Program-made: the position numbers and the translations under genes
The notes under the pieces: model-generated
The model's input: only the letters and a program-made list of their open reading frames with translations
Told to the model about the DNA's origin: nothing
The model's database searches: none
Source: Alicyclobacillus acidiphilus NBRC 100859
GTDB lineage: Bacteria > Bacillota > Bacilli > Alicyclobacillales > Alicyclobacillaceae
Assembly (NCBI RefSeq): GCF_001544355.1
Contig: NZ_BCQI01000015.1
Location: 1-64,000 of the forward strand
Direction of reading: 5' to 3'
Length of the DNA stretch: 64,000 nucleotides
Shown: positions 39,951 through 43,601 of the stretch, in pieces
Position numbering within the stretch: the stretch's first letter is position 1
Layout of the letters: each line of letters starts with the position of its first letter

Positions 39951-39980
39951 GGATAACTTGGGCACTCCTTTCACACTCTA
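39951..39980 (+). promoter_or_regulatory. Sigma-G-like promoter of the germinant receptor operon
   Basis: GGATA at 39951-39955, 18 bases, CACTCTA at 39974-39980. The sigma-G consensus is GHATR-N17/18-CATWMTA, so this matches 4 of 5 and 6 of 7 positions with correct spacing. ger operons are sigma-G controlled in bacilli. The implied start near 39987 leaves room for a leader only if translation begins at 40023. Confidence 0.4.
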
Positions 39981-40022
39981 CAGGGTGACGACATGCTATT
40001 GAAAGTGTGGAGGGTGGCACTT

Positions 40023-41834
40023 GTGAATCGAATATTCGGAGGTGCCGTGAAGCGGCTGCTGACCGTCGACGACAGCGTATTGGACGAACAATTCTCGCTG
40101 GAGAACGACAATCTGGACTCGAGCTATCAATTCGGCCCGAGTGAAGCGCCGCCTGAGGAAGTCAACTTTACCACAGCGGAAAACATGAATTACCGCACCA
40201 ACAAACGGGTGTCCATGAAGAAATTCTTACAGCGCGGCGAGCAGGAATACCACGCTGCCGTCGACAAGGCGAGGATTGGACACGACGTCGAAATACCAAC
40301 ACACTTGGAGGACATGCGCGCCAAGTTGGAGCGGGCGTTTCACATGCCCCAGAACAAGGACATTGTGGTTCGGGAATTCCAAGTGGGCGTGGAAGGCAAT
40401 TCAAAATGGTCCGGCATGGTCGTGTTTGTCGACGGGCTGGCGGATAAGAACGTCATCAATCTGTCCATTCTCGAACCCCTGATGATTCTCACGCACCTGA
40501 CCGATGCGCAACCGGAGCGCACCATGAAGTACGTCGCCGACAAAATGGTGCCAGGAAACCAGTCGGTGTTCGTCGACTCGTGGGCTGATTTGGTCAACAA
40601 CGTATTGACAGGTTCCACAATCCTGTGGCTCGAGCACTGTTCCTCGGCTCTCGTCATTGAGACGAAAGGTTGGGAGCACCGAAGCGTATCATCCCCGCAA
40701 ACGGAGGCGGTTGTGCGAGGTTCGCACGACGCGTTTACGGAGAGTTTCCGAACCAACACAGGCCTCGTTCGATCCCGGTTACGCACCGAGCACCTGGTCA
40801 CGGAGATCATCAGTGTCGGCAACCTGGCTCGGACAGACATCGGCATCATGTATGTCCATGGATTGACCAATCCCAGTCTCGTGCGCGAAGTTCGAAAGCG
40901 AATTTCTGAGATCGACGTCGATTTCTTGATGGACAGCGGCATGTTGGAGCAGTTCATCGAGGACAAACCGAGCATGTTGATCCCGCAGGTGATGGCTACA
41001 GAACGGCCGGATCGGGTTGCCGCCTCGCTCGCAGAGGGGTACGTCGCGATTTTCGTTGGCAACACGCCGTTTTGCCTCATCGTTCCCGTCGTTCTATGGT
41101 CGCTGATTCATACGTCGGAAGACACGAATATTCGTTACCTGCCTGGCACGTTTATGCGCGTGCTGCGGATGATTGCTCTGTTCACGGCTCTATTGCTGCC
41201 ATCGCTGTACGTCGCCGTCACGAATTATCATTCCGAGATGCTGCCGACCGACCTGATGTTGGCCATTGCCGGAAGCCGCGAGCAGGTACCGTTTCCTGTG
41301 GTGGTCGAAGTGTTGCTGATGGAATTCGCCATCGAGCTGATCCGCGAAGCTGGGATACGCATTCCCAGCGTGATCGGTCCGACCATCGGCATTGTCGGCG
41401 CGTTGATTATCGGGCAGGCGGCCGTGCAAGCAGGGATCGTGAGTCCGCTGCTCGTCATCGTGATCGCCACAACCGCGCTCGCTTCGTTTGCACTTCCGAA
41501 CTACGAGCTGAGTATGGGCGTGCGCGTATTGCGTTTCGCATTTTTGGTGGCTGGTGCCATCCTGGGGTTTTATGGGATTTGCATCCTGCTTTGTGTGTAC
41601 GTGGTTCGGCTCTCAATGCAAAAGTCGTTTGGCGTGCCCATCCTGTCGCCTGTCGCTCCCAACAGTGGATCGGCTCGCGACGTGATCGTGCGAGGACCGC
41701 TGTGGGGAATGAACAAGCGTCCGACATTCCTGCATCCGTTGCGCAGTTGGAGGCAGAATCCCATCACGAGACCGTGGAGCCAAACCACGGAGAAGCGAGC
41801 TGGCATCGGTTTTGGAAGGAGGAGATCGGATTGA
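40023..41834 (+). CDS. Spore germination protein, GerA family (receptor A subunit)
   Basis: A GerA-type subunit of 603 residues. It has a hydrophilic N-terminal part (about 1-330) with a family pattern (DIVVREFQVGVEGNSKWSGMVVFVDGLADK, LVRSRLRTEHLVTEIISVGNLARTDIGIMYVHGLTNP). About five helices follow (for example FMRVLRMIALFTALLLPSLYVAVTNYH and SVIGPTIGIVGALIIGQAAVQAGIVSPLLVIVIATTALASFALP), then a basic cytoplasmic tail. A subunits oligomerise into nutrient-gated ion channels in the inner spore membrane. GTG 40023 with GGAGGGTGG is preferred over ATG 39993. The stop overlaps the next start (TTGA). Confidence 0.9.
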   Translation: MNRIFGGAVKRLLTVDDSVLDEQFSLENDNLDSSYQFGPSEAPPEEVNFTTAENMNYRTNKRVSMKKFLQRGEQEYHAAVDKARIGHDVEIPTHLEDMRAKLERAFHMPQNKDIVVREFQVGVEGNSKWSGMVVFVDGLADKNVINLSILEPLMILTHLTDAQPERTMKYVADKMVPGNQSVFVDSWADLVNNVLTGSTILWLEHCSSALVIETKGWEHRSVSSPQTEAVVRGSHDAFTESFRTNTGLVRSRLRTEHLVTEIISVGNLARTDIGIMYVHGLTNPSLVREVRKRISEIDVDFLMDSGMLEQFIEDKPSMLIPQVMATERPDRVAASLAEGYVAIFVGNTPFCLIVPVVLWSLIHTSEDTNIRYLPGTFMRVLRMIALFTALLLPSLYVAVTNYHSEMLPTDLMLAIAGSREQVPFPVVVEVLLMEFAIELIREAGIRIPSVIGPTIGIVGALIIGQAAVQAGIVSPLLVIVIATTALASFALPNYELSMGVRVLRFAFLVAGAILGFYGICILLCVYVVRLSMQKSFGVPILSPVAPNSGSARDVIVRGPLWGMNKRPTFLHPLRSWRQNPITRPWSQTTEKRAGIGFGRRRSD

Positions 41835-42982
41835 CGCAGAGTGCGCGGAGAAACGCCAAAGTTCCTTCGAATGAGATGACGGCGATGCTGATTATCTTCG
41901 TCGCCACCAACGCGTTCCTGACGTATCCACGGTACATCAGCCGGAACGCGTATGAAGCCGCCTGGATGGAACCCGTGCTGTCCGGTGCGCTCACGTTGAT
42001 CCTGTTCCTGATTGTTGAATTCTTGCTTCGAAAGTATTTTCGCAACCTGGACATCGTCGAAGTGTCCAAAGAGGTGTTCGGACGTTTTGGGGCAGGCTGC
42101 GTCGCATTGCTGTTCTCTCTGTATTTCCTCTGCTCCACTGCAGCGGTCATGCGCGAGTTCACCGAGAATGTCGTGAGTACCGTCCTACCCGCGACGCCGC
42201 TCATCTTCGTCGGAGCGGTCTTTATGTTTGCTGTTGGCTACATCGCTTACGCTGGCATTGAAGGCATCTGTCGCGCTTCGTTTATCTTTCTTCCGCTTCT
42301 GCTCGTCGGCTTGGTGGCTGTTTGCCTGATGACGATGAATTGGTGGCACCCCTATTTTCTGCTTCCGCTTTGGGGAACTGGCGTTGACCGGGTGTTTGTC
42401 GGTTCGTTCCAGTACGCGTCGATCTTTGCCAACGTCCTCCTTCTGACCATCATCTATCCCCATGTCCACGACACGCGGGCGACGCGCCGCATGGGGGTTG
42501 TCAGCATCTCTGTGTCAACCTGTCTCTTAGTGGCGCTCATGCTCACGTATCACATGGTGTTTCCTCCGGAGGAGACTGGCAAAACGACATTCGCTCTGTA
42601 TCGATTGGCGCGGATCATCCATATGGGACCATTCTTTCAGCGTTTGGAGAGCATTTTCGTCTTCCTTTGGGTGACCGCAGCGACCATCCGCATGTCGGTC
42701 ACGTTGTGGGGTGCTGCCTACCTCTTGAGCAAGGCTTTCAACTGGTCGTCCTATCGGCCGGCAATTCCGTCGTTGGTGCTGATTTCGTTTTCGATGGGCA
42801 TGTGGGCAGACAGTTGGGTCCAAGTGATCGATCTCGACGGCAAGTACCTGTTGCGCTGGGGATGGACGGTCGTCTTCGCGCTGCCGCTCGTCATCCTCTT
42901 GCTGGGATCGACGGTGCGTGCGATCCGGCGCGATCGCGCGGACGAACACGATGACAACGGAGGGCGGATGAGACGTGCTTAA
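41831..42982 (+). CDS. Spore germination permease, GerB family (receptor B subunit)
   Basis: A 383-residue APC-superfamily permease with ten helices, from SNEMTAMLIIFVATNAFLTYPRYI to WTVVFALPLVILLLGSTVRAI. GerB subunits bind the amino acid or sugar germinant. TTG 41831 overlaps the gerA stop and has GGAGGAGAT upstream. The frame is open much further back to 41072, but that part runs through gerA and is not protein-like. No GerC lipoprotein gene follows; instead a tiny membrane gene overlaps the end. The germinant cannot be deduced. Confidence 0.9.
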   Translation: MTQSARRNAKVPSNEMTAMLIIFVATNAFLTYPRYISRNAYEAAWMEPVLSGALTLILFLIVEFLLRKYFRNLDIVEVSKEVFGRFGAGCVALLFSLYFLCSTAAVMREFTENVVSTVLPATPLIFVGAVFMFAVGYIAYAGIEGICRASFIFLPLLLVGLVAVCLMTMNWWHPYFLLPLWGTGVDRVFVGSFQYASIFANVLLLTIIYPHVHDTRATRRMGVVSISVSTCLLVALMLTYHMVFPPEETGKTTFALYRLARIIHMGPFFQRLESIFVFLWVTAATIRMSVTLWGAAYLLSKAFNWSSYRPAIPSLVLISFSMGMWADSWVQVIDLDGKYLLRWGWTVVFALPLVILLLGSTVRAIRRDRADEHDDNGGRMRRA

Positions 42983-43148
42983 ATTCTGTTCGTTGATGGT
43001 CATACCTGTCCTTGTGTTTTTTTATACGATGTCGTTTTCGCGCTGGCTCGCGAAACGGGCCGGCACAGGCGCATATGTCTCAGCCGCCATGCTAGGTGTG
43101 ATATCCTTAGGTGTAAGTGCAGTCACCATCTGGCGTTTGGTGATGTAA
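42975..43148 (+). CDS. Small two-helix membrane protein, candidate germinant-receptor D subunit
   Basis: A 57-residue frame from GTG 42975 to TAA 43146-43148 overlaps the gerB end by eight bases and has GGAGGGCGG upstream. It encodes two hydrophobic segments (FCSLMVIPVLVFFYTMSF and AYVSAAMLGVISLGVSAVTIW) joined by a basic loop (SRWLAKRAGTG). In several Bacillus ger operons a fourth gene encodes a 2-helix D subunit of 60-80 residues that modulates the receptor. Size, topology and overlap fit that role, which is inferred. Confidence 0.6.
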   Translation: MLKFCSLMVIPVLVFFYTMSFSRWLAKRAGTGAYVSAAMLGVISLGVSAVTIWRLVM

Positions 43149-43160
43149 GGGGGATAGCCC

Positions 43161-43601
43161 ATGGAAGAGCTGCAAGAAGTGACCATCTATACGGATGGCG
43201 CCTGTTCGCGCAACCCGGGACCGGGCGGATGGGCGGCCGTCCTTAAGTATAACGAACATGTTCGAGAGATATCGGGCGGCGAAAAGCATACAACGAATCA
43301 GCGCATGGAAATTCAGGCGGTCGTCGCGGCGCTCGAGTCGTTAAAGAAGCCATGCCGGGTCACCATTCATTCGGATTCCGCCTACGTTGTCAATTGTTTA
43401 ACGCAAAAGTGGTACGTGAAGTGGCAGAAGAACGGTTGGACCAACAGCAAAGGCGAACCCGTTCAGAATCGGGACCTGTGGGAAGCTTTGCTCGCGGCGA
43501 TCCAACCTCATCAGGTGTCGTTCAAAAAGGTTAAAGGTCACGCCGGTGTCGCGTGGAACGAGCGCTGTGACCAGTTGGCGAGGGCGGCCGTGCCGCGATG
43601 A
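43161..43601 (+). CDS. rnhA: Ribonuclease HI
   Basis: RNase HI cleaves RNA in RNA-DNA hybrids. The 146 residues carry all four acidic active-site residues: IYTDGACSRNPGPGGW (D), QRMEIQAVVAALE (E), IHSDSAYVVNCL (D) and NERCDQLARAA (D). It also has the basic handle-like region QKWYVKWQKNGWTNSKGEPVQNRDLW. ATG 43161 follows AAGGGGG. The stop overlaps the queG start (ATGA), so the two are translationally coupled. Confidence 0.95.
   Translation: MEELQEVTIYTDGACSRNPGPGGWAAVLKYNEHVREISGGEKHTTNQRMEIQAVVAALESLKKPCRVTIHSDSAYVVNCLTQKWYVKWQKNGWTNSKGEPVQNRDLWEALLAAIQPHQVSFKKVKGHAGVAWNERCDQLARAAVPR

Follow-up and report, generated by a model that had tools for sequence, protein, structure and literature searches.

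The window analysed here (the whole stretch of 64,000 nucleotides from Alicyclobacillus acidiphilus NBRC 100859) carries an operon coding for the A subunit, the B subunit and a small D-type subunit of a GerA-type germinant receptor. We assign a probability of about 0.9 to the reading that these three genes belong with a fourth in an ordinary receptor of this type, whose C subunit is encoded by a gene relocated behind rsfA elsewhere in the same genome and is supplied in trans. Thus, the operon taken by itself is predicted to be misleading with regard to subunit composition: What appears to be a three-part receptor would be a four-part receptor with one moved gene.

The receptor operon, without its promoter, spans positions 39993-43148 and is tightly packed: gerB, which has a TTG start, overlaps the gerA stop by 4 nt, and the small gene in turn overlaps gerB by 8 nt (Table 1). 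These coordinates and the associated family matches bear out the content proposed by the first-pass annotation, namely gerA, gerB, a 57-codon gene that overlaps gerB and codes for a two-helix protein, no gerC, and then rnhA. The locus displays the A domain (PF03323) and the B component of the spore permease family that define GerA-type receptors, with the C component absent from the same operon; neither this locus nor the rest of the window's contig contains a GerC match. The encoded GerA matches the solved N-terminal domains 6o59 and 9prb and has one clear ortholog in 39 of the 41 genomes of the family (38 if only the high-scoring class is counted), with the orthologs scoring >500 bits and the paralogs <400.

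Table 1. Coordinates of the receptor genes, the promoter, the stand-alone gerC and the split gerA orthologs of relatives (window positions unless a genome or locus identifier is given; G000 is the window genome)
Feature	Position or locus	Strand	Remarks
sigma-G-type promoter, GGATA-N18-CACTCTA	39952..39981	+	conserved upstream of gerA
gerA, A subunit	39993..41834	+	613 aa; PF03323 581 bits vs cut-off 27
gerB, B subunit, spore permease family	41831..42982	+	383 aa; PF03845 151 bits; TIGR00912 158 bits vs 139.55
D-type small gene	42975..43148	+	GTG start, 57 aa, two hydrophobic helices
rnhA, neighbour outside receptor	43161..43601	+	PF00075 160 bits
stand-alone gerC	G000:C12:40046-41356		PF25198 + PF05504, lipobox TSGCFD
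split gerA halves, G008 (Alicyclobacillus fructus)	L076/L158
split gerA halves, G040	L091/L155		107 kb apart, one strand
split gerA halves, G053	L156/L157		93 kb apart, one strand
split gerA halves, G045	L160/L161
split gerA halves, G047	L162/L163

The same annotation had gone on to propose a receptor composed of A, B and D only, and this composition is not supported. A search for gerC elsewhere in the genome, run as a check on that proposal, recovered a full-length copy that has a lipobox and the two GerAC domains and is situated in the thiI locus directly behind the gene for an RsfA-family regulator. It is the only stand-alone gerC of the window genome and the ortholog of the C component of an ancestral operon described below. 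Its ortholog is present in each of the 41 genomes of the family, where it scores >190 bits as against <56 bits for the next-best GerC. In the sister family the ortholog is found in 15 of 18 genomes; one genome of that family (G043, 91% complete) is without both the A and the C of the window type. At the level of the genome a cognate C is accordingly encoded, given the orthology between the stand-alone gene and the gerC of A-B-C-D operons. By coordinates, a gerC ortholog never lies at the gerA locus in genomes of either family, and the two genes are 0.6-2.3 Mb apart in the 13 genomes where both are on one contig. A short gene (L007:2036-2551, minus strand of G000:C12) adjoins the stand-alone gerC in convergent orientation; this arrangement recurs in most genomes of the two families, and the short gene has no NCBIfam match.

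The window genome has eight GerA-family, seven GerB (plus two marginal permease) and seven GerC matches, which sort into six complete sets, one extra GerA, the A-B pair of the window and one stand-alone C. The eighth GerA-family protein (G000:C1:48758-50119) adjoins a complete A-C-B set and is perhaps SpoVAF-like. One of the receptor operons has a GerC match (G000:C59:6688-7170) listed with a single internal TAG stop, and that receptor may be broken. Among the plasmid records of Alicyclobacillus and Priestia, genes for GerA-type receptors are also carried by four Alicyclobacillus plasmid records.

The origin of the stand-alone gene became apparent when 22 stand-alone C proteins were aligned and the alignment was searched against 398 genomes of the class. 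Orthologs were recovered outside the order with E-values of 1e-100 to 1e-143, and in all 16 of the loci fetched they are part of a single operon of the form A-B-C-D, with all genes on the same strand and with A, B and D components orthologous to those of the window. When scored with profiles built from the window's order only, the A components of these loci reach 800-930 bits where the gene is complete and the D components 49-72 bits. Phylogenetic trees agree with these relationships: the stand-alone C is nested inside the A-B-C-D clade (branch support 95/94), with the genome's remaining six C proteins falling outside it, and the window A likewise falls inside the A-B-C-D lineage, to which none of the genome's other receptors belongs. 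Both four-gene loci that were read gene by gene are followed by rnhA, as in the window. The site now occupied by gerC is also recognisable: two outgroup genomes (L260, L261) have thiI-rsfA but no gerC there, as against the order thiI-rsfA-gerC in the window genome (L092). On the basis of these A-B-C-D orthologs outside the order, the A and C trees and the gerC-free thiI-rsfA of the outgroups, genome comparison establishes that gerC left an ancestral four-gene operon in the lineage of the window's order. In most of the family rsfA and gerC are kept together with a further small gene and an SDR gene behind gerC, and in most of the sister family gerC is flanked by this further gene or the SDR gene. 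A single move for both families is favoured, because these new neighbours of gerC are common to both of them; the C genes of the two families are not joined in one clade in the C tree.

The small gene of the operon proved to be a real and widely conserved component. Beyond the window, 47 related loci were detected with a profile and two more with tblastn; these are all of the complete loci of the two families, 11 of them contributed by the sister family, such that the gene lies 3' of gerB in every one of the 50 complete loci in the order, the window included. The frames are usually ~55-62 aa in length, and longer where an earlier start was taken. Evolution under protein-level constraint is indicated by the differences at the three codon positions (829/598/1615) and by a median dN/dS of ~0.12 over 38 usable same-genus pairs, for which dS is near saturation. 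The protein has the conserved pattern P-x5-YT-x2-F-x-RW; in an alignment of 19 rows no substitution affects P11 or Y17, and W24 is almost invariant. The predicted structural model consists of two helices, H2-28 and H31-56, with a pLDDT of 73 obtained from a shallow alignment. No family in Pfam or NCBIfam matched it above cut-off, and no D-like frame was found in a search near the other receptor genes of the window genome. In five genomes of the same genus rnhA is gone from the site and the A-B-small gene unit is intact, which implies that the small gene belongs with A and B. Its features are those of a D subunit, i.e. a size of 57-62 aa, two predicted membrane helices and a place directly behind gerB, or behind gerC where the operon has all four genes. 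Direct comparison was made with WP_013059999, a 76-aa candidate for GerUD on pBM700 chosen by length and position: the D profile scored it no better than shuffled sequences, proteins so short being able to diverge beyond detection. Taken together, these observations support the small gene as a conserved receptor gene that has the position and two-helix form of a D subunit.

Other explanations have to be set against the relocated C. The operon is without gerC in every genome of the order and D is kept everywhere, as might be expected of a true three-part A+B+D receptor that dropped C, with its role taken by D or B and the stand-alone gerC serving otherwise. We consider this very improbable: the C of the ancestral operon is the very gene that is retained in all 41 genomes of the family, published receptors fail when any one of A, B and C is missing (PMC11841064), and the presence of D in the four-gene operon means that it did not arise to replace C. 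With six other GerC proteins encoded in the genome, A and B might instead borrow the C of one of the other receptors, leaving the stand-alone protein as a shared or spare C. This too appears very improbable, given that the stand-alone C clusters with its counterparts from A-B-C-D receptors, apart from those six, and that its gene is conserved one-to-one with gerA.

A further alternative concerns the small frame alone, which in most genomes occupies the place between gerB and rnhA and might accordingly be a translated leader or spacer devoid of a receptor role and kept only for coupling to rnhA. However, the frame stays with A and B where rnhA is gone, is under selection at the protein level and comes after C where other families have the four-gene operon, and we accord this explanation hardly any likelihood. 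The assignment of the relocated C to the A and B of the window is thus the reading we adopt; we infer this pairing by orthology and elimination.

The sigma-G-like promoter that had been noticed ahead of the operon is conserved: the pattern GNATR-N17/18-CANNNTA is found upstream of 35 of 38 gerA orthologs, as against 0.3 expected from shuffles (maximum 3 in 100 shuffles). It also occurs upstream of 19 of 45 stand-alone gerC genes (expected 0.4); the copy of the window genome itself has no match to the strict sigma-G-type pattern. Based on these patterns upstream of the gerA and gerC orthologs, both the A-B-D and the stand-alone gerC units look to be forespore-expressed in the lineage. Under the relocated-C reading, we propose that a single operon of overlapping genes, driven by the sigma-G-type promoter, supplies A, B and D, that C is made in the forespore from a promoter of its own, and that C then joins the other three in the spore inner membrane. 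The resulting complex, of which C would be a necessary part, is predicted to act as a ligand-gated receptor with roles that follow the published GerA-type model: B would bind the germinant, A would be the ion channel and C the lipoprotein of the outer face (PMC11841064, PMC13170314), and D would tune sensitivity, as reported for D subunits (PMC4661057). Nothing that we found contradicts this model with C supplied in trans.

Receptors with D subunits are known from Bacillus megaterium (GerU/GerUD), from B. subtilis and B. megaterium (GerK/GerKD) and from B. cereus (GerI/GerID), and their A, B, lipoprotein C and small two-helix D are forespore products (PMC4661057, PMC13170314). The system described here resembles them in having the same four kinds of gene. 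They differ from it in that the window-type gerC lies far from A-B-D; further, the window D is without detectable similarity to the above GerUD candidate. A subunit gene detached from its operon also has parallels among the clostridia, e.g. gerKA-gerKC with a separate gerKB in C. perfringens, as well as monocistronic gerA genes and orphan gerB genes (PMC5083711). However, in the clostridia the detached gene is that for A or B, with gerKB being located next door in the opposite direction (PMC5083711), whereas here it is the gene for C, hundreds of kilobases away in all the genomes tested of two families. In the literature searched we found no report of a detached C, nor of the window locus in Alicyclobacillus. 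As C is under separate control from A-B-D in the whole order, which includes the juice-dwelling genus Alicyclobacillus, this lineage is a natural setting in which to ask whether the supply of C sets the number of receptors per spore. The A-B-C-D clade together with the small D family also provides a clean set for covariation-based modelling of the place of D in the complex.

The gerA gene itself is interrupted by large elements in five relatives of the window organism. The window copy is intact and contains, at about 41361-41405, the conserved motif IPSVIGPTIGIVGAL that is the insertion site in these five genomes, where the ortholog is split at the same codon, after GPTIGIVG (Table 1). In all five a large serine recombinase of 518-545 aa is encoded directly upstream of the 3' half of gerA, and joining the flanks in a simulated excision restores, in each case, an open frame through PT(I/M)GIVGAL coding for a protein of 577-691 aa. 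With a recombinase adjoining the split gene and halves that rejoin in frame, these five genomes carry candidate intervening elements comparable to skin in sigK, SP-beta in spsM, vfbin in spoVFB, gin in gerE and yin in yabG. The difference lies in the target, which codes for a germinant receptor subunit and stands behind a forespore-type promoter, and in the character of three of the elements, which are ICE-like rather than phage-like; gerA is not among the interrupted sporulation genes (the five just listed) named in the literature searched. A classification as prophages, for which XRE and IrrE-like genes spoke, was dropped, as three of the elements share VirB4-, coupling-protein-, T2SSE-, actin- or Replic_Relax (relaxase)-like genes that point to an ICE-like nature for these three of the five.

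It is conceivable, if on balance unlikely, that these elements constitute a germination switch, with the receptor working only where the element has left and with excision occurring in the developing forespore. Such an exit would take place in the surviving cell line, whereas the known elements are lost from the mother cell, which dies. The elements may instead do no more than disable the receptor. If the gerA elements were excised during sporulation, they would link mobile DNA directly to the germination decision.

The recombinase clade is narrowly distributed. Among the 59 genomes of the order it is intact in exactly the five with a split gerA, and a sixth has a fragment of it. A scan of a collection of ~85,000 species with two peptide patterns yielded four records, each from one of the split genomes, and otherwise distant relatives; a scan of viral contigs gave nothing close. 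The fragment (G024:C1:3196873-3197511, L278) is 326 aa in length, belongs to the same recombinase clade, lies ~145 kb from an intact gerA and is possibly the relic of an old element. In G047 a CRISPR cas6 gene starts no more than 75 bp from the element's left junction (L162:4050 onward) and is followed by cas-like frames, suggesting that this element may carry a CRISPR-Cas system.
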